Shown here one piece after another: positions 3,542-17,273 of a stretch of 33,493 nt of DNA (within the stretch, counting starts at the first letter, position 1; each line of letters opens with the position of its first letter). The notes beneath the pieces are model-generated. The model was given only the letters and a program-made list of their open reading frames with translations. It was not told the origin of the DNA and made no database searches. A program made the position numbers and the translations under genes. Source of the stretch: Bacteroidota bacterium (GTDB lineage: Bacteria > Bacteroidota > Bacteroidia > UKL13-3); assembly GCA_947485745.1 (NCBI GenBank), contig CANKQY010000022.1:1-33493 (forward strand), read 5' to 3'.

Positions 3542-6500
3542 CTACTCCTTTATCAGCTTAATCATTTTTACGGTTTGATCCAAAGAAGTAAGTCGTAAAA
3601 TGTAAACTCCAGGTGTTAATTCCGAAACATTTTCCCATTCAATCAATGTTTCTCCAATTGCAGTAATGTTGTATGTTCTATTCTCTATTTTGCGCCCATT
3701 TATATTTGTTAATTCTATGGAAACTTCTCCTTCAGTTTGAACCGAGAAAAGAACACTGAAATGGTTATTTACAGGATTAGGAAATACAATAGGTTCAGGC
3801 ATTGGGTTCAAACCATTATGTTTTAATACAATTGCTTTTGAATAGGTAAAGCTACCATCAAAATCTACAGACTTTAGCCTGTAAGCCACGCTTTCTTGAG
3901 AGGTTTTAACCCAAAAGTATATATCATCAAATTGATAACTCTCTATTCGCTGGCTATTCCCTTTTGCACCAATTCTTGCTATCTCCTCAAATTGGCTGCT
4001 AGTGGTAGAGCGCTCTAATACAAAATGTGAAAGATTTTCTTCACTAGCTGTTTTCCAAAATAGGCTATTGTTGTTGCCCGCTATTTTTCCATCAAATAGG
4101 AGTAGGGTAACTGGCAAATAGCCTCCACTACCCACGCCCAATGGGGTTAGGTTTGTGATAGACCCTATTGATAAACTAAATGGATTTGCCCCACCCGAAA
4201 CTTGCGTGGCGCCCGGATTCCATGTTGGGTTCACATACCTCGAAACATAGGCAGCTCCTCTGTTAAATCCGGAAAGTTCATCTGCCAAATTCCATTGAAG
4301 GGTTGTTGTTAGATTACTTCCTCCTGCGGTTTGCTCTGTTAAGAGCCAAGTTCTATTTACAGCATTAATGGGAACCAGCGGACCAGTTGGAACATTGCTC
4401 GCATTGTAATTGCCGTAAACAGCGTTTAGCACGCGTGCGCGGTACTCATCTGCTACACCTGCATTGGTTATAGATATTGGGTTATATGAATTGGTTGATG
4501 AGCCAACAGGAAATAACACAGCTCCAGTTCGTACACCTGTTCCAATATTTTGGATATTAAATGTTCCAGAACCCGTTGTAGCAACATACGTAAGTACATT
4601 TGACCCAATGGTGGTAGAGCTTGTTCCCGTTAAGGAAAGATTGTAATTGCCTAAGCTAATAATGCCCCTTAAAAACCTCAGTGTTCCCGATACATTTACA
4701 TTCCCCAACAAAACAGCACCATTCAGGTTATTTATTCCCAAATTGATGTAGTTAATTCCTGGAATATTTTGCTGAGAATCTCCTGAAAACACTATGGTAC
4801 CATTGCTATTTACCAAGGTTCCATTTAAAGTTGTATTTCCATGTATACTTAACGAACTCAAAGTATTGTTGAGGGTAAGAGTAGCTGATGAGTTAATATT
4901 TAAATTCTGACAAAATCTTGCAGAGTCTGAAATAATTGGCAAATTACTTACGTTCGGAATTAGCACATCTGTGGTTGAGGTGGGAATAACTCCGCAAGAC
5001 CAATTACCAGCTGTTCCCCAATTTGTACCAACAGCACCTGTCCACGTACTTGTGTTCGACACCATAAGGGTTGCTGCATTAGAGATACCTACTGGCAAAC
5101 ACGCACCCGTAAACATACAGCGGTACTGGTATGCATTCATACTTGCATTGGCACCCGTAATTCTAAGGCTTGTGGTTGTTGCACCAGTATATACTCCTGT
5201 ATTTGCTACATTTATCCACCCTGTACCCTTATTTACTTGCCATTGAAAAGTTGATCCTAATCCATCTGGGATAATTGTAAATGCTGTATCTATTGGTCCA
5301 CATGAGATAGATACATTTGAGGGCTGTGATAAAAATCCGGCTTGACCAGAGCTAAAGGTAAACTCAAAAGCGCCAATGTCTGGTGTTAAACTCCTGGTGC
5401 TATTGTTATAATCTTTGGTTACCGATGTTACAAACATACCAATATCAGCTACTCTGCATGCATTGGTGAAAAGGTCTCCATTCACTCTGTTTGGAAAAAA
5501 CAAATCACTTGAAAGTTGCGAAGGTATATTCTGTATATTGTTTACAGGATTTCCAGTAAACGAATTCCATGAGCCTAAGGTTCTGCTGGTTCCAATACCA
5601 AATTCAACCATAGCAGCAGTTAGAGGAGAAACAAATAAGTTAAAATCATGGGTAAAATTAGTTGCAAAGTTTGTTGAAAGCGCATAGTGATTTCCTGAGC
5701 CGCTTCTTTCGTTGTATAAAATGTTATTTTTTAATGTAAGGCCAGCTGCGGTGCTAGAAGTGTTTCTTAAAAAACAACTGCTGGTATTTGGTCCTGCCGA
5801 TACGCCCCCCAAATAAATAGAATTAAAATAAAAGGTATTATTACCTCCCCCAGTAGCCAATTCTATTCCTCTTACTCTTGGTTGTGTGCCAATTATATTT
5901 GGCATAAGTACAATTTGATTGTTTGCAAACAAGTTGGTACCCGAACCACTGATATAAATTCCTCTTAACACAGGGCTGTTGGTAGCAGTATTCAAATTGG
6001 TTGCTAGCAATTTATATACCCTATTCCTAGTTACTGGAGAATTGCTTAGCGAGCTAACAATCGCAATACCCGTTACAGTAATACCATTTGTAGTACTTTG
6101 GTTTGTCAAATCAAAAATTTGATTGTTTTCTATATTGTTTCCCGAACCATTAGAAGAGAAACGAATGCCAACACAACTGTAATCAACATTTGTTAAAGTT
6201 GTTCCGTATGTGATGATATTACTAATGATGTTATTGCTCACATTTGCCACCCCAGCTTCAATACTTATTCCAATGGAATAGCCCGTTCCATAATTATACA
6301 TATTTGAAACCTTGTTATCATTGCATCCAATTTCTGAAGAGCTGTTGTTTCTAATACCATAAAAAGCATAGGCAACAGAAATTGAATCATAAGGAAATCC
6401 ACCTTGGGATGCTCCGCCAATAGAATTATTCGAAACGGTTACTGTTCCAGAAAACACCTGAATACCTGTAAACACAACTGCGGTGCCAGTTAATTTTATG

Positions 6501-9500
6501 TTTCCAATGCGGTTCCCCGAAATGACTGAATTCACATTACTACCTCCAGCAAACACAATAGGTATCATGGTTCCAGAGGTTAAATAAGCAGCACCCGAAC
6601 GATTGAAATTGGCACCCCCAAATGAATTATCTACAATTTGAACATTGTTAATGTTGTTGTAAGCATAAATGCCATAAACAGCTGCTGTATGTGAACTTGT
6701 AGCAGTTGAATACATAGCATTATTACCAATGCTATAAGCGCTGCCTGAACCTAATAAAATATGGTAATGGTTGCCTCTCGTTTTGGTTTGAATGAGCCTA
6801 TTCCCTTTGCTTGGATCAAGCAAATCTCCAATGGCAATATTTGCGCCTGCATTGGCCACATAAATTCCATAATTTGTAAAGTCTATGATTGTATTGGAAG
6901 TAAGAGTAAGATTGTGAATATTACCTGCAACCGAATTGATTAAAACAGAGGTAATAGGGTTATTGGTATTATTGTTTAATGCAGGCCGAATAATATTGTT
7001 ATGGATGATGAGGCCATTTGTTTGAGTGGAAATTGAACTTGTTGTTAAATACAATGTAGCATAGGCGCCTGAATTTGAGTTCCCCTCAAGGATGCAATTT
7101 TTTAGCGTGTCGTTTAGGCAATTTAAAAAATGCACGGCTGGTGCAGTTCCTGAATTGGGTGTTGTGCCAATGCTATTTCTGATCAATAATTTTTGTGAGG
7201 CGCCTCCATCTATCGTCACATTATTTGCTCCGTTAATCGTAATCAAACCATATCCATTCGCCACCAATGCGCCAGAGAGTGTCCTAATAGAATTATCTGG
7301 TTTAATTAACAAATTATATCCACCAAGCCCAGAATTGTTTAAGGTAACTGTTCCTGGCTCACTAATGTCAGATACAATGGTCAAAACAGTATTACCAGAG
7401 AGGGCACCAGTGTTAATAGCATTAAACACACCCGTTGTTCCCGTTAAAGTAGTGTATGTTTGGCCAACCCCTACTGATATGGTTGCGGGTAGGCTTCCAA
7501 CCACTCTATAAGACAGTGGTGTTGTAGGTGCATTTATTTGAGTTGAAACATCGCTGTGGTTCGCTCCAGGATAAGGAAAATAGGAAATATTGCTTGTTGA
7601 GGCACTGTCTTGAGCAACGATATAATATTGATATTGCTGACCCAAAGCAGCAGGGCCAATAGGTGTATAATCAATGGAAAAACTCCATGATCCAACATTA
7701 GCATTTCCCGAAACCAAAACACCCATAGTACTTACCCATGAACTGGTTGTTGGAAGCGTGCGCCTATACCAAATTCTTGGTGCTAAGGTTGTGCTTCTTC
7801 TCACACCTGTTCCAATATCTTTTATTTCTGCAAATACAGTTCTGTTGCTAGTTGAAGAGGTATTTGTTATGGGAGTTAGATTGATAATTGGTATAAAAAT
7901 ATCAACCCCTGCATAGTTACCTGCATCTGCTCCAATATCTGTAGGTGTTTTAGAGCTCCTTGTTTCACCTTCGTAATCCTCTAAAATCTCTGAAACTAAT
8001 ATACCAGAAGCCTCTGCAGGCGTTGGACTCATTACCTTCATGCTCAAATTAACCTTGTTGCCTGTTGCCAAAACGAAATTAGGATTGCCATAACCTGAAT
8101 TGTAATCTAAAAACAAAGTTGAGCGCCACAATGGTAAGCTCGTATAATCAGTTCCTCCTATTCCTGCCATTACACCACCTATGCCAGGGGTAAAGTATAT
8201 GTTGTAGTTAATCTCTAAACCTGTTAATGATCCAGTTGTTAGAAATATAGCATAATTCTTCCCCGATCCTGATGCATTGGATCTGGCATTTAAAAAAATA
8301 TTGTTCTGAATGTTTCTAACACCCGTTGAGGCTGTGGAATTATAAAATGCATACGTATTATTTAGACTCACAGTAACCGAATTACCACCAATATAAACCG
8401 AATTGTGGTAATAATTATTCGCGTTACCTGCATCAACTATTCCAGCAATAATGTGATTCAAATTAATAGAACTACCACTGGTATCTACGCCCAACCTCAC
8501 CATATTGTTTACAGCCATTACTCCTGAATTCACATTGTAAATGCCATAATGAACACTTGAACCGCTGCTATATGAATTAAGACTATGAACAAAGTTCTTG
8601 CTTAACACATTGATTCCAGATGTACTCGCAGCATAATGAATACCCGTTAAAGAGGTTGCACCTATACTATTTGTATTGCATAACCCATAAACCAAATTGC
8701 CATTACAAACTTGGTCTGGACCACTTGAACTATGCAATATGCCAATATTAGGCGTGTTTGTTCCTACTCCTGTAGAATTGCCGCCAAAGGTTAGGTTGTA
8801 AACTACATTGTTTTTTACACTGGAAGTTCCAGTTGAGGAAATGTAAATGCCCGCTACCCTATTGGCAGTTTGATTGCCGGGTGAGGTTAAATTTGCAATG
8901 GTATTATCGGTAATAATATTGGTTGCTGAACCTGGAGAAATAAAAACACCAAATAAATTATGGTTGGTGGAATCACAAATATTATGCAACCTATCTGTGC
9001 TTCCAATGAGGTTGCCTGTTATACTTAAAGATGGAACGGTAACTCCAATGTGAATACCTCTAAAGTAAACAGTTCCTGTGCCGCCAATATTTATTCCAGA
9101 AATGTTGTTCGAACTAATGGCAATGTTACCATATGAACTACCTCCTGCAACCATAATAGGAGAAAATGTAACGTTGGTTCCGCTAGATTTAAATACAATA
9201 TTGTTGTCATTTAAATTGCTTCCAAGGGTGTTAGCATCTACAAGAAAATCTCCGTTAATTAAACCAAACAAGGTAGTAGTACTGCCAGATAAATCAAGGT
9301 TCATGTTTTGTAGAAAATTACCTTGAATTACGCTAGTAATGTTTGAAGGCAAATTCATATTTACCAAAGAAACGTAACCGGTACCTGAATAATTCATTGC
9401 CGAACCACCACACATAGGTTCAGAACCGCCAATATAATTGCCATAAATAGTGTAGCCAGAACCAGAAGACGCATAAATGGCACCCGCTGCATTGAATGAT

Positions 9501-11236
9501 AACACCCTTTGAGTAGTTTGATAAAAGTTGTTTCCACCTATAAACCATGAGCTATTTCCTGTGGTTAAAAACACCCCATAAGTTGCGTTTGAACCATTGT
9601 AATAATCATAAATATTATTGCCATACAAGGTGTTGTAAATATTTGGATAATTGGAATTTCCCGCAGAATAAATCGCATAAATAGGAGTGTTTATGGTATC
9701 TTTAATGATACAACTCATGATAAAGTTGTTGCTGTTACCCTCTGTACCCGTGGTTGATGCAAAAGTTACGACCCCAGATGTGAGTGAAGTACTGGCGCCA
9801 TTTACCCTACAATCTGTTAATGTATTGCTTACCGCACCATTGATAAACCTGATGGCAGTGCCCGAACTGCTCAAATTCGAAACATGTATTAAACTTTTTG
9901 TTCCACCCAAAATCTTACCATCTATGGTAAGGTAATCCGTTGTGTTAAAATCAAAGGTGGGAGAGGTTATAGAAATAAACTTAATAGGTGTAACAACATT
10001 TACCCTAGGCCTAATAGTTACATTATTCATAGAACTGCTATACAAGTCCCCAAAATTCAATGGATATGTTTCAACTGTGGGACTATAAGTAGCGTCTAAT
10101 TCTAAAGCCAAATTTCCACTAACCCCTTTTAAGCGAATATCATTGGTTGCACTGCCTATGCTGGTGTAATCGCAGCCTGTAGGGCAAATGGTTTTAACCC
10201 CAGTTAACAAACCTGCATCAGTGGCCTGAGAATCGGCAACAAAATTAATAGGAACACTCCCTTCATTACAAGCAAATACCCTAAAAAAATAAATATTTCC
10301 GGGAAGTAAGTTGGTTAAGGCATATTGGTAACTTAATCCTGTACCATTGGGTGAGTTTGAATTTATTCCCGCTAACAATGAAAAATTAATATTATCTGGC
10401 GACATATATACCTGGTAATAGGTCTCTGTGCTAGTATTATCAACCCAACCCACATTAATTGTTGTTGCGGTAATGTTTGTGAACACCAATGAATCTGGTG
10501 CATTTGGAAGTGTATATTTTGGCGCAAAAGTATAGAGCTGACCGTTAGCAGGTTTTGTATTCAAGGCAGTAAACTCTGTAACAGAATTGGTATCAAAAGG
10601 ATTGTTACTTGTAGATGTTAAACAAAAGAAATTACCAGAACCTGTTGCCGCATTGGTAATGCCTATAGACGCTGTTGGAGATAATAATGCGCCTGCCTCT
10701 GGTGTATAAATATACTCTACTTTACTATCAAATTCCTTAAGTCTTAGTTGAAAAGATATCCCTGGATTTGCTGCAGTGGCGCCCCATCTTGCATTAAGCC
10801 ATTGAACGGTAAATATCCTATATGGTGCTGTACCTGTGGTTTGGTAGGAAATAGATGTGGCGGAATTAAAATTTAGATTGTCCCAAAGTGGCGCCAAAAT
10901 AGGCCTTGGAGATAAGGTTCCAGACCCATTTGTCAAATTGTTTGTAAAACTATTTAGCGTGCTGATCGGTTGACCCAAAGAAACATATCCATTGGTTGAA
11001 ATGGCAGCCGTTGTGTAGGAAACACTGTTGTAAACAAAGTTAAAACCGATAGGAATATTATTCACGTATCCTTCATCCAATGTGCCTGTTATGGTAACAG
11101 AATTGGGTGTTAATAATGGCGTAAAAACTGAACTAGAAGGAGTGTACAAGTAATTCCTCACCGTTTGTGCAAACGATGTATTTATACTCATTAAAAAAAA
11201 GAAAACCCAAAGGATGCGTTTGTAAATTTTTACCAT
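3542..11236 (-). CDS. Giant secreted beta-helix protein with FN3 and Ig-like domains and a T9SS sorting domain
   Basis: A 2564-residue exported protein. Order of parts: signal peptide (1-24, ending SFAQ); an N-terminal beta domain; a fibronectin type III domain at about 245-335; a first right-handed beta-helix region at about 350-1105; a linker; a second beta-helix region at about 1255-1955; an Ig-like domain at about 1970-2058; a TWTG...NW...GNW beta module from about 2060; the LPVTLLLF segment at about 2380-2475 that often precedes T9SS tails; and a sorting domain at about 2482-2564 (VFPNPVNNHF ... PGVYILRLTS ... KLIKE). Each beta-helix half closes with the same type of motif (RSSKTPTDIGAD near 1103, RSLTPDIGAFEF near 1955), pointing to internal duplication. 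No catalytic motif is evident. An adhesin or glycan-binding or glycan-degrading surface role is plausible but unproven. It is transcribed alone after the tandem terminators at 11444-11550. Confidence 0.92.
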   Translation of the reverse strand: MVKIYKRILWVFFFLMSINTSFAQTVRNYLYTPSSSVFTPLLTPNSVTITGTLDEGYVNNIPIGFNFVYNSVSYTTAAISTNGYVSLGQPISTLNSFTNNLTNGSGTLSPRPILAPLWDNLNFNSATSISYQTTGTAPYRIFTVQWLNARWGATAANPGISFQLRLKEFDSKVEYIYTPEAGALLSPTASIGITNAATGSGNFFCLTSTSNNPFDTNSVTEFTALNTKPANGQLYTFAPKYTLPNAPDSLVFTNITATTINVGWVDNTSTETYYQVYMSPDNINFSLLAGINSNSPNGTGLSYQYALTNLLPGNIYFFRVFACNEGSVPINFVADSQATDAGLLTGVKTICPTGCDYTSIGSATNDIRLKGVSGNLALELDATYSPTVETYPLNFGDLYSSSMNNVTIRPRVNVVTPIKFISITSPTFDFNTTDYLTIDGKILGGTKSLIHVSNLSSSGTAIRFINGAVSNTLTDCRVNGASTSLTSGVVTFASTTGTEGNSNNFIMSCIIKDTINTPIYAIYSAGNSNYPNIYNTLYGNNIYDYYNGSNATYGVFLTTGNSSWFIGGNNFYQTTQRVLSFNAAGAIYASSGSGYTIYGNYIGGSEPMCGGSAMNYSGTGYVSLVNMNLPSNITSVIQGNFLQNMNLDLSGSTTTLFGLINGDFLVDANTLGSNLNDNNIVFKSSGTNVTFSPIMVAGGSSYGNIAISSNNISGINIGGTGTVYFRGIHIGVTVPSLSITGNLIGSTDRLHNICDSTNHNLFGVFISPGSATNIITDNTIANLTSPGNQTANRVAGIYISSTGTSSVKNNVVYNLTFGGNSTGVGTNTPNIGILHSSSGPDQVCNGNLVYGLCNTNSIGATSLTGIHYAASTSGINVLSKNFVHSLNSYSSGSSVHYGIYNVNSGVMAVNNMVRLGVDTSGSSINLNHIIAGIVDAGNANNYYHNSVYIGGNSVTVSLNNTYAFYNSTASTGVRNIQNNIFLNARSNASGSGKNYAIFLTTGSLTGLEINYNIYFTPGIGGVMAGIGGTDYTSLPLWRSTLFLDYNSGYGNPNFVLATGNKVNLSMKVMSPTPAEASGILVSEILEDYEGETRSSKTPTDIGADAGNYAGVDIFIPIINLTPITNTSSTSNRTVFAEIKDIGTGVRRSTTLAPRIWYRRTLPTTSSWVSTMGVLVSGNANVGSWSFSIDYTPIGPAALGQQYQYYIVAQDSASTSNISYFPYPGANHSDVSTQINAPTTPLSYRVVGSLPATISVGVGQTYTTLTGTTGVFNAINTGALSGNTVLTIVSDISEPGTVTLNNSGLGGYNLLIKPDNSIRTLSGALVANGYGLITINGANNVTIDGGASQKLLIRNSIGTTPNSGTAPAVHFLNCLNDTLKNCILEGNSNSGAYATLYLTTSSISTQTNGLIIHNNIIRPALNNNTNNPITSVLINSVAGNIHNLTLTSNTIIDFTNYGIYVANAGANIAIGDLLDPSKGNRLIQTKTRGNHYHILLGSGSAYSIGNNAMYSTATSSHTAAVYGIYAYNNINNVQIVDNSFGGANFNRSGAAYLTSGTMIPIVFAGGSNVNSVISGNRIGNIKLTGTAVVFTGIQVFSGTVTVSNNSIGGASQGGFPYDSISVAYAFYGIRNNSSSEIGCNDNKVSNMYNYGTGYSIGISIEAGVANVSNNIISNIITYGTTLTNVDYSCVGIRFSSNGSGNNIENNQIFDLTNQSTTNGITVTGIAIVSSLSNSPVTRNRVYKLLATNLNTATNSPVLRGIYISGSGTNLFANNQIVLMPNIIGTQPRVRGIELATGGGNNTFYFNSIYLGGVSAGPNTSSCFLRNTSSTAAGLTLKNNILYNERSGSGNHYALSTNFATNFTHDFNLFVSPLTAAMVEFGIGTSRTLGSWNSFTGNPVNNIQNIPSQLSSDLFFPNRVNGDLFTNACRVADIGMFVTSVTKDYNNSTRSLTPDIGAFEFTFSSGQAGFLSQPSNVSISCGPIDTAFTIIPDGLGSTFQWQVNKGTGWINVANTGVYTGATTTSLRITGANASMNAYQYRCMFTGACLPVGISNAATLMVSNTSTWTGAVGTNWGTAGNWSCGVIPTSTTDVLIPNVSNLPIISDSARFCQNLNINSSATLTLNNTLSSLSIHGNTTLNGTLVNSNGTIVFSGDSQQNIPGINYINLGINNLNGAVLLGNVNVSGTLRFLRGIISLGNYNLSLTGTSSTTIGSNVLTYVATTGSGTFNIQNIGTGVRTGAVLFPVGSSTNSYNPISITNAGVADEYRARVLNAVYGNYNASNVPTGPLVPINAVNRTWLLTEQTAGGSNLTTTLQWNLADELSGFNRGAAYVSRYVNPTWNPGATQVSGGANPFSLSIGSITNLTPLGVGSGGYLPVTLLLFDGKIAGNNNSLFWKTASEENLSHFVLERSTTSSQFEEIARIGAKGNSQRIESYQFDDIYFWVKTSQESVAYRLKSVDFDGSFTYSKAIVLKHNGLNPMPEPIVFPNPVNNHFSVLFSVQTEGEVSIELTNINGRKIENRTYNITAIGETLIEWENVSELTPGVYILRLTSLDQTVKMIKLIKE

Positions 11237-11602: not shown

Positions 11603-14600
11603 CTACTCTATTTTAATTACTTTGAAAGTTTGCGCTTTTTCATGACTTGCGCTTATTTGTAGGTAGTAAATACCTGCAGGTACCATGCGAAGATCAATTT
11701 GAGTTAAGGGTAAAATGCTGCTTCCTTTTAAAACAGATTTACCCGAATTGTCCATTAATGCAAATCGTAAGCCTTTGTTGTTTGGCGCATCAATATATAA
11801 ATCACCTTGTGTGGGTTGAGGGTATACTTTGATAGATGTTATGGCATCTTCCAATTCAATAATCCTACTTACAGAAAAACTTGATTTGCCGTCCCAATCT
11901 ATTTGGTTCAAACGATAATAAAATATTTTAGACTCACTGCCACTTAAATTCACTTGTCGGTCTTCAAAGGTGTAAGAGCTTTTGAGTGCAGTTGTTCCTT
12001 TACCTTTTACCATTCCAATGCTTGTCCAATCTTTGCTATTGGTAGCGCGTTCAATGATAAAATGTTTGTTGTTTAATTCACTGCCAGTGCTCCACGTGAG
12101 CAATACATAATTGCTATACTTTTGGGCTTCAAAACTGAGGTATTGAACGGGCAACACAATGGTGTTTGCACCAATTGCAAACCCACTAAATCCAGTGGTG
12201 AATGTTGACGTAATAATAGAGTCTTGCGTTCCTGGATATACCGAATAACTTGTACCTGTTCCATACACTCCTGTAGCAATGGTTCCACTAGCAATGTTGT
12301 TGGGTGTTTTAAGGATATTAGCATTTGAAAATTTTTGTCCTGTTATGCTTTTCCATCCATTCAATTCTGCTTCTGTATAAAATAATTTTATTTGATAAGA
12401 TCCAGTTGGATTGTTGTTGCTTGGCGTTACTGTATAGGTTTTACTGGCAATTCTTTTATTCGCAGTGGTATTGCTTCCAAAATTGATAGCCCCAACACCT
12501 GCATTGTCTATACTTACCGTGGTTTGCCCGTAATTGTATGAACTGTTATTGGTTAATACGGCCATTATTTTTCCTGTTGGTGAATAAAAAGTATCGGTTT
12601 CGTTAGGACCAAAATTCAAGCTCCTACTGCTAATGGTTGTTTCTATAGCTGGTAATGAAAAGGTAGTTGAATCAAGGGTTAAAAGATTGCCATTTCCTGC
12701 CAAATCGAGCACAGCATTGGCTGCAATTTGAAGGAATATTTTACCAGCATTTACAGGATTAATAATTAAGGAATAAGCATTTGGTGCTGTTTGTGTAAGT
12801 GTTCCTTTTATGCCATTGGTAATAGTGATGGAACTTGTGTTCAAAACACTTGTTGGCTCACTAACTGTTATATTGGCCACAAAGGGAGCGAATACCTGAG
12901 GCTTGGGCATTTGAATGGCAATGCTTGGAACTTGTGTGTCTATAAAAATGGCATAGTCTTCACTTTCACCATAACTCAACAGTCCGCATGGTGGCGTGGC
13001 AGAGCTGCCAAAATTGGTTACCACTCTCATGCGTATCCATTGGTTTATAATAGGAGGTAATGCCAATATTGAAATACTACAACTTCTCCTATCTGTGCCC
13101 GAACCGATTGTTCCAACCAATTCATTGGCATCGGTGAAAAGTCCGTTATTATTGTAATCAATATATATCTTTTGATTTTGTGGATTGGTATTTCCTGTGG
13201 TAACCCATGCTGTATAGGTTGTTCCAGTTTTCACACTGGTGCCATTGTTACAAGTAAAATCAGTATAACTGGCCACGCCAATGCTAGAAGGGTTATTAAT
13301 GGAATTCAATTCAAATGCCTTTATTCCCATGCCATAACCAGATAGGTTAGTGGTGGTAGTTGAACAACTTGCTGCAGGTAAAGGAGTATATCCAATTGTT
13401 TTGCTTGCTGTAGAAGAACCAGTGGCATTACTTACCATCAATGAAATGGAATAATTACCAGCGTTAGTGATCCTAATTTCTGCTCTATTGCTTAATGAGT
13501 CGGTTCCGTTTAAGTATGTCCTACCGCTTGTTGGTTGTATCATCCATTTGCGCGAAACGGGTGCTTGACTTGAGTGGTCAACCAATATAAAATCAGTTGG
13601 ACAAGCACTCAAAGAATTCGGTTGAACCGTGAATTCTGAGATAGGAGCCAAGGCTGTATTTTTATACAAATTACTTTGCCAAATACCTCTTCCATAGGTT
13701 GAGATATAAAGTCGTTCAATGTTTGCACCATTGCTCAAAATTTCCATATCAGATATTTGAGCCACCAAAGGAAGTCCGGTTGAATAGGGTATCCAATTAA
13801 CTAAACCACTATTTCTGTAATATACTCCAAAAGCAGTGCAGATATACATGGAAGAGTCGTTGGCTTTTTGATCCAATTCAAATTTGATGAGGTTATTGGC
13901 CGGTAGGTTTTTAGTGATGCTTACCCAGGTAAGTCCTTTGTTCATTGATTTGAATAAACGTTGTTGCGTAGTTACCACATAAACTATATTGGAATCTATG
14001 TCACATGTTTCAATTTGTTTAATGGCTTCTGGGCCGAGAAATGGAAAGCTGGTAATTTCCGTGAATAGAGGTGACGCAGCGTTTATGTTTTCTGATTTGT
14101 AAAACTTCCGTGGAGAGAAATAAACGTAAAATGTACCACTACTTGTATTTGCAAAAGCGGCACATTTGTTACCCCATGAGATACTACCTGGTATCGCACT
14201 TATTTTGGTCCAACTCACGCCAGATGCCGGATTTGCTCTAAGGTTGTTGGTTCGCCATACATTGGTATCCAATTCAAACATCACATTGCTATCATTTGGG
14301 TGAACAACATAAATTCCACCTCTTCCATTAATGTTAGCTGTTGCATTTGAGACCAGATTTCTTTTAATGCCACCATTTTCATATACCATGCTGCTGTCAA
14401 ATGCATCAGCAGCAAAATCGTCAAAATGATCTCCTCCTCTTACTGTTGCATAATTTTTATTGATAGACACATCCATACCATTGTCTTGCAGCCCGCCTAA
14501 AATATAATCTTTGGCTAGCTGACTGCTTCCCATTTTGTAAAATTCAGAAGCCGAGAGTCCATCTTCAAAGGTGGTCCATGTGCCACCACCATTGGTGGTT

Positions 14601-15676
14601 CTATCTATACCACCATCATGGTATATAAATAATTTATTGGGGTTAAAGGGCGAGAAAAGGAAACCATGTTTGTCTGCATGAACACCATAGGCCCAATGGG
14701 AGAGAAGTGTGAAACTACTTCCTTGATTGGTAGATTTCCAAACATTAATGGCACCAACATACAGGGTGTTGGCATTGTTGGGGTCAACAATTAATGCCAA
14801 GTTGTATGATTCTTGTCCATCCATGGTATTACCAGTTCCCGAGTATCCTAAAATGTTAGGTGTATCTGCCATTAAGGTAAAGGTGCTTCCGTTATTGGTT
14901 GATTGGTAAAGACCACCAAACGGACTAGTACCACCAGTTCGCCATGCTACACAATATAACTTAGAGGTATCAGAAGGACAAACGGCTAATTTAATGCCTG
15001 CACATGTGATTGCAGGATTGATATTGATTTGCGACCAAGTTTCAGCATTATCGAAACTTCTATAAAAATGTGTATTACTTGCAGCATAAAGAATCTGCGT
15101 GCTTTGCGGTCGGTAGGAGATGTCTCTATAGCTTGTTGTTACCGTTGTTTTTTTGACCCAAGTGCTGCCATTATTAGTGGTCTTATAAATGCCATCTGAA
15201 CATGCAGCAATAATGGTGTTGGTATCTCCGGGTAGGAACACCATTTCAGAAATCATTTTGTTGCCCATACCTGTATTTGAAACAAACCATGATTTTCCGC
15301 CATTGGTAGTTTTGTATACGCCTAATCCGCCTGAGTTATAGTTTGCATCGCCTGTTCCCAAATACATTACCTCTGGGTTAAGGGGGTTTATTAGCAGAGA
15401 AGCGCAGGCCGTTTGCGGCAATAAATCACTCATAGGTTTCCATGTATATCCTTCGTTAGCGCTTTTAAAAACACCACCCGATGCCGTTACTGCAAACAAG
15501 ATATTGCTATCTGTTGGATGATACACCAACATAGAAACTCTACCCATGCCCGTTGTTTGCACACTTGGGTTGCTAGGGAATTTTACAGGTCCGTGTTGGG
15601 TAAAGGTGGCACCGGTTTGAGCCAATAACGCTGAGGAGATAAAGAAAACAAGTAGATAAAGTAGTAATCGGTTCAT
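11603..15676 (-). CDS. Secreted sortilin/BNR-type beta-propeller protein with PKD, GEVED and T9SS sorting domains
   Basis: A 1357-residue exported protein. After a signal peptide (1-20, ending LLAQ) come about 600 residues with repeated Asp-box-like turns (TTNGGKSW, TTNNGSTW, SFDNAETW, STNNGSTF, STNQGSSF, TTNGGGTW, SMNKGLTW), the hallmark of sialidase/VPS10-type propellers. Then follow a PKD-like domain (about 665-760), a GEVED domain (about 830-912, IYIDYNNNGLF ... GESEDYAIF), a bacterial Ig-like domain (about 915-1010), the LPVQYLSFEA segment (about 1170-1270) and a T9SS tail (about 1279-1357, VYPQPTQGDLYI ... PAGIYYLQIS). The tail has YPQP where FPNP is usual. No sialidase catalytic residues were identified, so binding or structural function is more likely than hydrolysis. 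Its start overlaps the stop of the upstream lipoprotein gene by 4 bp (ATGA), implying translational coupling. Confidence 0.9.
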   Translation of the reverse strand: MNRLLLYLLVFFISSALLAQTGATFTQHGPVKFPSNPSVQTTGMGRVSMLVYHPTDSNILFAVTASGGVFKSANEGYTWKPMSDLLPQTACASLLINPLNPEVMYLGTGDANYNSGGLGVYKTTNGGKSWFVSNTGMGNKMISEMVFLPGDTNTIIAACSDGIYKTTNNGSTWVKKTTVTTSYRDISYRPQSTQILYAASNTHFYRSFDNAETWSQININPAITCAGIKLAVCPSDTSKLYCVAWRTGGTSPFGGLYQSTNNGSTFTLMADTPNILGYSGTGNTMDGQESYNLALIVDPNNANTLYVGAINVWKSTNQGSSFTLLSHWAYGVHADKHGFLFSPFNPNKLFIYHDGGIDRTTNGGGTWTTFEDGLSASEFYKMGSSQLAKDYILGGLQDNGMDVSINKNYATVRGGDHFDDFAADAFDSSMVYENGGIKRNLVSNATANINGRGGIYVVHPNDSNVMFELDTNVWRTNNLRANPASGVSWTKISAIPGSISWGNKCAAFANTSSGTFYVYFSPRKFYKSENINAASPLFTEITSFPFLGPEAIKQIETCDIDSNIVYVVTTQQRLFKSMNKGLTWVSITKNLPANNLIKFELDQKANDSSMYICTAFGVYYRNSGLVNWIPYSTGLPLVAQISDMEILSNGANIERLYISTYGRGIWQSNLYKNTALAPISEFTVQPNSLSACPTDFILVDHSSQAPVSRKWMIQPTSGRTYLNGTDSLSNRAEIRITNAGNYSISLMVSNATGSSTASKTIGYTPLPAASCSTTTTNLSGYGMGIKAFELNSINNPSSIGVASYTDFTCNNGTSVKTGTTYTAWVTTGNTNPQNQKIYIDYNNNGLFTDANELVGTIGSGTDRRSCSISILALPPIINQWIRMRVVTNFGSSATPPCGLLSYGESEDYAIFIDTQVPSIAIQMPKPQVFAPFVANITVSEPTSVLNTSSITITNGIKGTLTQTAPNAYSLIINPVNAGKIFLQIAANAVLDLAGNGNLLTLDSTTFSLPAIETTISSRSLNFGPNETDTFYSPTGKIMAVLTNNSSYNYGQTTVSIDNAGVGAINFGSNTTANKRIASKTYTVTPSNNNPTGSYQIKLFYTEAELNGWKSITGQKFSNANILKTPNNIASGTIATGVYGTGTSYSVYPGTQDSIITSTFTTGFSGFAIGANTIVLPVQYLSFEAQKYSNYVLLTWSTGSELNNKHFIIERATNSKDWTSIGMVKGKGTTALKSSYTFEDRQVNLSGSESKIFYYRLNQIDWDGKSSFSVSRIIELEDAITSIKVYPQPTQGDLYIDAPNNKGLRFALMDNSGKSVLKGSSILPLTQIDLRMVPAGIYYLQISASHEKAQTFKVIKIE

Positions 15677-16107
15677 TGTCTGTTTTTCCTTTCTTTTTCA
15701 GATTGTTCTAAAATTTCTGCTGGTGTCATTAACGTCCCATCAGTTTTTACTAAATTTTTATTTCTTTCCATCCAGTTGAGGAATTGTTTGTATTCATATA
15801 CGTATTGAACCGACCTACTTGCCTCTGCTTTTTTTTCTGCTTCCGATTTTTCTTTACCGTAAATGTCTCTGGCTTCTCCGCTGTCTTCCGTGGGTTTTTC
15901 GTGTTTAGACCAATAGGCATTAAATGCCTCAACTGCTTGGTAGTAATTCACCTTTGGATCGTTCATCATTTGTATCCAAGTGGGTATTTCCTGCAAGGTA
16001 TCATGCTTTTTTGTTTCGGTTTGAACCGATACCTGTGATATTCGACTGCAGGAGCATAGGTTTATTGTTAGAAGAAGAGTATGAACCAAGGTATTGGTGG
16101 AACGCAT
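15673..16107 (-). CDS. Small putative lipoprotein, translationally coupled to the secreted propeller gene
   Basis: I take the ATG at 16107 as the start (144 residues) because it gives an Arg-led, hydrophobic leader ending in a lipobox-like LCSC; an upstream ATG at 16194 in the same frame would overlap the preceding gene and put a second hydrophobic stretch ahead. The mature part is highly charged: a segment WIQMMNDPKVNYYQAVEAF plus AYW, then Glu/Lys-rich helix, then QFLNWMERNKNLV. From memory of Bacteroidota secretomes, a WxxMMxDPxxNYYxxxxxF..YW segment often occurs near the N-terminus of large T9SS propeller proteins, so this may be a detached piece of such a protein (inference). It ends with a 4-bp overlap on the 1357-residue gene. 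No enzymatic function can be assigned. Confidence 0.75.
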   Translation of the reverse strand: MRSTNTLVHTLLLTINLCSCSRISQVSVQTETKKHDTLQEIPTWIQMMNDPKVNYYQAVEAFNAYWSKHEKPTEDSGEARDIYGKEKSEAEKKAEASRSVQYVYEYKQFLNWMERNKNLVKTDGTLMTPAEILEQSEKERKNRQ

Positions 16108-16175
16108 GTTATAAATTTTTGTAAATGTATTAAAAACAATTGAAAAGTTCAAAAGAAATAAAATGGGGAGGAAAC

Positions 16176-16721
16176 TTATAAGATTCTCTGCCATAAGTTT
16201 TGTTTAGCCTTGAAGGAAACTATTCCTTTATACAAGTCTATAACAAAGTAATCTATAATATAGGCGTTACTATATGTGATACCATTCAATATTACCTCAT
16301 TTCTAAACCATGTTGGGTCAACGTCAAAATCCCATGAATCATAACCAAGGTAACATTCGATTCTTGGACGGTATTTATCTTGATGAAAAATCAATATTAA
16401 TTTATAGGCAAAATCAGGACTAATATAAATGTTGGAAACTTGCTCTCCCCAATACCGACCTCCATAATAACCGCATCTTTCGTTTATAAAGTTATCCTGA
16501 TATTTAAATATTTCTTCAGTTCGAGATTCAAGATAAAATTTTACAGTGTCTAAACTATTATAAGTAAACGTTAAGGTGTCTAATCCATTATTAGTTATTA
16601 ATGCTTTAAATACGCTGTCCAATGGCACAAATTGCCATGGCTCTTGAGCGGGACAAGGCTTTTTACAACTTAAAATGGAAAGTGTAAAAAGTATTGGGAT
16701 AAGAATTCTTAAACAGGCCAT
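16176..16721 (-). CDS. Hypothetical lipoprotein
   Basis: A 181-residue protein starting at ATG 16721; a GTG at 16727 would add Met-Lys. The leader MACLRILIPILFTLSILSC ends in a lipobox and is followed by KK, so it should be membrane-anchored and probably periplasmic. The mature part shows no family I recognise; it is rich in aromatic residues and short beta-like strands. It lies 16 nt downstream of the 3' end of tRNA-Arg on the same strand and 68 nt upstream of the next lipoprotein start, so it appears to be the first protein-coding gene of a tRNA-led operon. Confidence 0.75.
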   Translation of the reverse strand: MACLRILIPILFTLSILSCKKPCPAQEPWQFVPLDSVFKALITNNGLDTLTFTYNSLDTVKFYLESRTEEIFKYQDNFINERCGYYGGRYWGEQVSNIYISPDFAYKLILIFHQDKYRPRIECYLGYDSWDFDVDPTWFRNEVILNGITYSNAYIIDYFVIDLYKGIVSFKAKQNLWQRIL

Positions 16722-16737
16722 TTTCACTTTAAAAAAG

Positions 16738-16809
16738 TAGTCTCGAGCAGAATCGAACTGCTATCAAATGTTTAGGAAACATCTATTCTATCCATTGAAC
16801 TACGAAACC
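16738..16809 (-). tRNA. tRNA-Arg (anticodon CCU)
   Basis: Read on the minus strand, all four arms fold: a 7-bp acceptor stem with one terminal G-U and an inner U-G pair, a D stem GTTC/GAAT, an anticodon stem GATGT/ACATT around the loop TTCCTAA, a 4-nt variable loop, and a T stem AGCAG/CTGCT with loop TTCGATT. Anticodon CCT lies at 16776-16774. Length is 72 nt with discriminator A; CCA is not encoded. The next gene on this strand starts within 17 nt. Confidence 0.94.
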
Positions 16810-16823
16810 AAGAAATACAAAGG

Positions 16824-16854
16824 CGAAAATAGGCATAATGTCTTACTCTTTCAA
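16824..16854 (-). promoter_or_regulatory. Promoter of tRNA-Arg and probably of the lipoprotein/T9SS operon
   Basis: On the minus strand TTG (16854-16852), a 20-nt spacer and TATTTTCG (16831-16824) match the Bacteroidota form TTG-N19/20-TAnnTTTG with one mismatch. The -7 box ends 14 nt before the tRNA 5' end. Confidence 0.6.
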
Positions 16855-16872: not shown

Positions 16873-16917
16873 CAAAAAAACCCTCAATAGGTCGTTTGTA
16901 ACAGACTATTGAGGGTT
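16873..16917 (-). terminator. Terminator of the cold-shock gene
   Basis: A 12-bp stem (16879-16890 with 16906-16917, core CCCTCAATAG) is followed on the minus strand by seven T. A smaller hairpin (16959-16965 with 16971-16977, ACTCCAA/TTGGAGT) sits between the csp stop and this terminator and may shape the 3' UTR. Confidence 0.82.
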
Positions 16918-16985
16918 GGACAATAACGAAAAACCTCTTGGGATAATATTATTATCAAACTCCAAAATTATTGGAGTGAGTGGAA

Positions 16986-17180
16986 TTAGTTTTTTAACTT
17001 TACGTTAACAGCTGTAGGGCCTTTTTTTCCCTCGCCGATTTCGAAAGTAACAAGGTCGTTTTCTTGAATTTTGTCGATAGTGTCTGTAACATGTACGAAA
17101 AGCTCGTTTCCGTTATCGTCACTCTTGATAAAACCAAAGCCTTTGCTTTCGTTGAAAAATTTTACTGAACCAGTTGGCAT
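16986..17180 (-). CDS. Cold-shock protein (CspA family)
   Basis: At 64 residues it has the normal length of a single cold-shock domain. The two RNA-binding motifs are present: RNP1 KGFGFI at about 13-18 and RNP2-like LFVHV at about 27-31. These proteins bind single-stranded RNA and DNA and act as RNA chaperones in the cytoplasm, affecting translation and antitermination. It has its own -7 box upstream and its own terminator downstream, so it is probably monocistronic. Whether it is cold-inducible cannot be told from the sequence. Confidence 0.95.
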   Translation of the reverse strand: MPTGSVKFFNESKGFGFIKSDDNGNELFVHVTDTIDKIQENDLVTFEIGEGKKGPTAVNVKLKN

Positions 17181-17220
17181 AAAAAAAATATTTAGTTAAT
17201 TCAAATTTAGAATTAGGTAT

Positions 17221-17228
17221 CAAAGATA
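17221..17228 (-). promoter_or_regulatory. -7 box of the cold-shock gene promoter
   Basis: On the minus strand TATCTTTG matches TAnnTTTG exactly, about 40 nt ahead of the csp start. No TTG lies at the usual distance; an AT-rich inverted repeat (17230-17240 with 17259-17269) occupies the -33 region and may be a protein-binding site or weak structure. Confidence 0.5.
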
Positions 17229-17273
17229 ATTAATTAATTGGCTTTTCTCATTATTAATCAATTAATTAAGCTT

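Follow-up and report, generated by a model that had tools for sequence, protein, structure and literature searches.

Likely co-transcription of a lineage-specific lipoprotein gene with tRNA-Arg(CCU) in a Bacteroidota bacterium

Introduction

In E. coli, tufB is co-transcribed with tRNAs. In the literature on bacterial tRNA-mRNA dicistronic transcripts, no directly comparable Bacteroidota study was found. The sigma-A promoters of Bacteroidota carry the -7 box TAnnTTTG and a TTTG motif near -33 (PMC7366714; PMC9723704). Leaders have a median length of 24 nt in F. psychrophilum (PMC9723704), and an A at position -3, which suits Bacteroidota initiation, is a positive initiation determinant in F. 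johnsoniae (PMC6847099). Here, a tRNA-Arg(CCU) gene followed by genes for two lipoproteins (lp1 and lp2) and a propeller protein was analysed in a Bacteroidota genome (G000); "the window" is the whole stretch of DNA under study (33,493 nt).

Methods

The anatomy of the locus, its conservation, the absence of hairpin terminators and the promoter matches were read directly from the DNA. Promoters were scanned for as TTG-N19-21-TAnnTTTG (9 scored positions), and were assigned to a transcription unit by consensus match only. The adjacency of tRNA-Arg(CCU) and lp1 was searched for with lp1 as the query in 60 relatives, 64 genomes of the family and GTDB contigs, and was also looked for at 80 M1-peptidase loci. 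The names tuf, secE, nusG and rplK were assigned by reading the protein sequences, not by profile search.

Results

The features around the tRNA gene were as follows (G011 is a closely related species):

16874..16916, minus strand: csp intrinsic terminator (ccctcaatag...ctattgaggg-T7), identified by sequence and conserved in G011
16824..16854, minus strand: putative sigma-A-type promoter of tRNA-Arg, TTG-N20-TATTTTCG (-7 box 16831-16824), 8/9 consensus positions
16809-16738, minus strand: tRNA-Arg(CCU) (ARAGORN 16809-16737/16738; Rfam RF00005, 61.1 bits)
16722..16737, minus strand: 16-nt spacer CTTTTTTAAAGTGAAA, the presumed mRNA leader once the tRNA is 3'-processed; identical in G011 and without hairpin terminator
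16176..16721, minus strand: lp1, a 181-aa lipoprotein with signal peptide and lipobox LSC (alternative start GTG 16727)

ARAGORN and Rfam confirmed that the tRNA ends at 16738, as given in the preliminary description, and both start codons named there as next (ATG 16721 or GTG 16727) lie on the same strand. The discriminator base is A16738 and CCA is not encoded; among the 35 tRNAs of the genome, this is the only copy with the CCU anticodon. The genome carries a gene for RNase Z (above the curated cut-off), the enzyme that should process the 3' end of a tRNA without an encoded CCA. The ATG of lp1 follows the tRNA on the same strand after 16 nt, and was preferred over the in-frame GTG because of the A at -3. 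A leader of this length is ordinary beside the F. psychrophilum median.

The csp gene (16986-17180), upstream of the tRNA, ends in a clear, strong terminator, so tRNA-Arg(CCU) should start its own transcript. The 8/9 promoter site ends 14 nt 5' of the tRNA, and its core atgcctattttcgc recurs 5' of tRNA-Ser(UGA) in the same genome (L105). Across the genome, 33 regions upstream of tRNAs were scored, and 20 of them gave 8 or 9; the background in the window, per kb per strand, was 4.4 for score 7, 0.97 for score 8 and 0.06 for score 9. Both promoter boxes and their 20-nt spacing were kept in G011, where the sequence between the boxes has diverged.

Together with the untranslated parts on both sides and the terminator stem, the csp gene (window ~16896-17232) forms a block of ~335 nt that is identical in G000 and G011 (L031); the neighbouring M1 peptidase has a protein identity of just 89% between the two. 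Similar blocks (85-86%) are found elsewhere in G015 and G018. The identity of the csp block may reflect either strong RNA constraint or recent transfer.

From the tRNA start to the lp1 start, the scan returned 7/9 sites only, i.e. the chance level, and no site stood above background between the two genes. No hairpin with a T tract was found there either. A bare T6 run lies immediately 3' of the tRNA with no G+C-rich hairpin next to it, and part of the transcripts might terminate at this run. In both G000 and G011, most tRNAs that stand last in a cluster have an intrinsic terminator; tRNA-Arg(CCU) has none. The preliminary description had left no room for a separate promoter or terminator: no hairpin terminator was indeed found, but the statement was too strong for the promoter, which could overlap the tRNA, though only at 7/9 sites. 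The best of these, TAG-N21-TACTTTTT, would overlap the tRNA 3' end and yield a nearly leaderless lp1 mRNA, the tRNA transcript itself ending at T6. TACTTTTT is one position off TAnnTTTG, but sites of this score are frequent by chance, a full TTG at the right spacing is absent and the T6 run lacks an adjoining hairpin, and we regard an overlapping promoter as quite unlikely.

A match to tRNA-Arg(CCU) was present in 18 of the 19 genomes of the genus, where its usual neighbours are the M1 peptidase and tRNA-Ser. Within the search described above, its adjacency to lp1 was confined to G000 and G011 (L149). As to conservation of the adjacency, G011 has kept the promoter boxes, the tRNA, the identical spacer and the lp1 start, and the 16 other genus genomes with tRNA-Arg(CCU) lack the arrangement. 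In other members of the genus a hairpin-T terminator stands directly 3' of the tRNA (L035, L036, L038, L040, L042, L044 and L046). From these comparisons, the adjacency is most likely derived and young; in two close relatives, common descent without function would give the same pattern. The window also encodes a 2564-aa repeat-rich protein of secreted type (3542-11236), of which a homologue (81% identical) lies 5' of tRNA-Arg(CCU) in G002 (L040), in the same general locus and on the opposite side of the tRNA.

lp1 had no Pfam or NCBIfam match. Its first 42 codons are 88% identical in G011, as far as the G011 contig end inside lp1, with 5 non-synonymous and 3 synonymous changes, so that selection on the protein cannot be claimed. 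Relatives of lp1 are rare (5 of the 64 family genomes). In several members of the genus (G004, G017, G013, G014 and G003), tRNA-Arg(CCU) is flanked or split by additional, incomplete copies of itself, as if mobile elements had repeatedly integrated at this tRNA. lp1 could be a degenerating insertion next to a tRNA prone to integration, scarcely expressed, an account with which the partial tRNA duplicates, the rarity of lp1 and its mostly non-synonymous divergence from G011 agree. We judge it unlikely: the 181-aa frame is intact and includes a lipobox, no tRNA fragment is repeated in the window, and the spacer and start are conserved in G011. An integration origin of the whole operon was likewise unsupported, the tRNA 3' end being repeated nowhere in the window.

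G004 (L046) carries a 5' half of the tRNA, one complete copy and a 3' portion (124-163, 176-250 and 14072-14126), ~13.9 kb apart; G013:C41 (87125-87305, L042) has three short fragments (tRNA positions 17-41) at 78-nt spacing, 5' of the intact tRNA. Further partial-copy loci are L032 (G017, 3624-3663), L042 (G013), L047 (G014) and L048 (G003).

Downstream of lp1, the following features were assigned:

16122..16152, minus strand: putative own promoter of lp2-propeller, TTG-N20-TACATTTA (-7 box 16129-16122), 8/9 consensus and conserved in G002
15673..16107, minus strand: lp2, a 144-aa lipoprotein, ATG 16107, a start common to G002
11603..15676, minus strand: propeller protein with a Sortilin/Vps10-type propeller, GEVED and a T9SS sorting tail; 4-nt overlap with the lp2 stop (ATGA)

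Eight further genomes from this genus and family have lp2 and the propeller gene side by side, without lp1 or the tRNA, and no tRNA was found at the lp2 loci examined. The closest copy is in G002 (proteins 76-92% identical), where the pair stands alone, lp1 and the tRNA are absent, and lp2 is divided over two frames. Upstream of lp2, G002 and the window are unrelated until approximately the lp1 end, where conservation begins with TTG-N20-TACATTTA and the ATG matching 16107. This ATG is most likely the lp2 start, rather than a codon within the lp1 overlap. Since conservation with G002 begins near the lp1 end, lp2-propeller is most likely transcribed from a promoter of its own, lp1 and lp2 having been joined secondarily.

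A single operon in which the tRNA provides the only promoter for lp1, lp2 and the propeller gene would fit the shared strand, the small gaps and the lack of any terminator found between lp1 and lp2, which also leaves read-through from lp1 into lp2-propeller possible. The gene order argues against it, the pair occurring without lp1 and the tRNA in eight other genomes (the G011 contig stops inside lp1), as does the putative independent promoter before lp2, conserved in G002 where homology breaks off near the lp1 end. We therefore hold a single tRNA-led operon to be very unlikely. The preliminary description had placed the tRNA at the head of such an operon, with the only promoter-like match preceding the tRNA. 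The first claim was unsupported, as lp2-propeller is inherited as a pair apart from lp1 and the tRNA and has a conserved putative promoter; the second holds for tRNA-lp1 and fails for the whole operon, given the 8/9 site in the lp1-lp2 gap.

Discussion

Quite probably, tRNA-Arg(CCU) and lp1 form one co-transcribed unit in which the 3' cut of the tRNA makes the lp1 mRNA, and lp2-propeller is a separate unit with its own promoter. Co-transcription of the tRNA with lp1, in an ordinary manner, appears likely and is the best reading because the promoter is only upstream, no terminator intervenes, the spacer is conserved, RNase Z is encoded and the same genome offers two precedents. With it, the spacer is best read as a 16-nt leader whose 5' end, at C16737, is made by processing.

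We infer read-through, processing and translation of the tRNA-lp1 transcript as follows. In the lineage to which G011 and the species of the window belong, lp1, which has no promoter of its own, would have been placed directly behind tRNA-Arg(CCU). RNA polymerase would start at TTG-N20-TATTTTCG, transcribe the tRNA and continue into lp1, with no hairpin terminator between. RNase Z would cut after the discriminator A16738, to release an lp1 mRNA with the 16-nt leader CUUUUUUAAAGUGAAA-AUG. lp2 and the propeller gene would be expressed as a two-gene unit from their own promoter, and might be reached by read-through from lp1 too.

The proposed tie between a surface-protein operon and tRNA maturation shrinks, with lp2-propeller separate, to one small lipoprotein in two closely related species, and the sequence analysis gave no hint of special regulation through the tRNA. 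That lp1 output follows the transcription and maturation of tRNA-Arg(CCU), with 3' processing needed to release the leader, as a switch that couples an envelope protein to growth rate, seems to us highly improbable.

Three of the 35 tRNAs in the genome run directly into an ORF: tRNA-Thr(GGU)-tuf, tRNA-Trp(CCA)-secE-nusG-rplK and tRNA-Arg(CCU)-lp1. Because the first two share its layout, the lp1 unit belongs to a kind accepted within this genome, and existing knowledge of tRNA-mRNA operons is unchanged by it. What it would add is a modest case of promoter capture in nature, recent and lineage-specific, in which a non-housekeeping gene seemingly gains expression behind a tRNA, at a position where close relatives keep a terminator. 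In tRNA-Thr(GGU)-tuf, a tufB-type operon (L062/L066), the tRNA likewise leads into an ORF, with a 33-nt gap; unlike the lp1 unit, it contains several clustered tRNAs, and its ORF encodes a translation factor. The tRNA-Trp(CCA) unit (L066) resembles the lp1 unit in having a same-strand ORF 12 nt after the tRNA and no terminator, but its genes serve core functions in transcription, translation and secretion, and G011 (L089) has the unit too, whereas lp1 encodes a lineage-specific lipoprotein.
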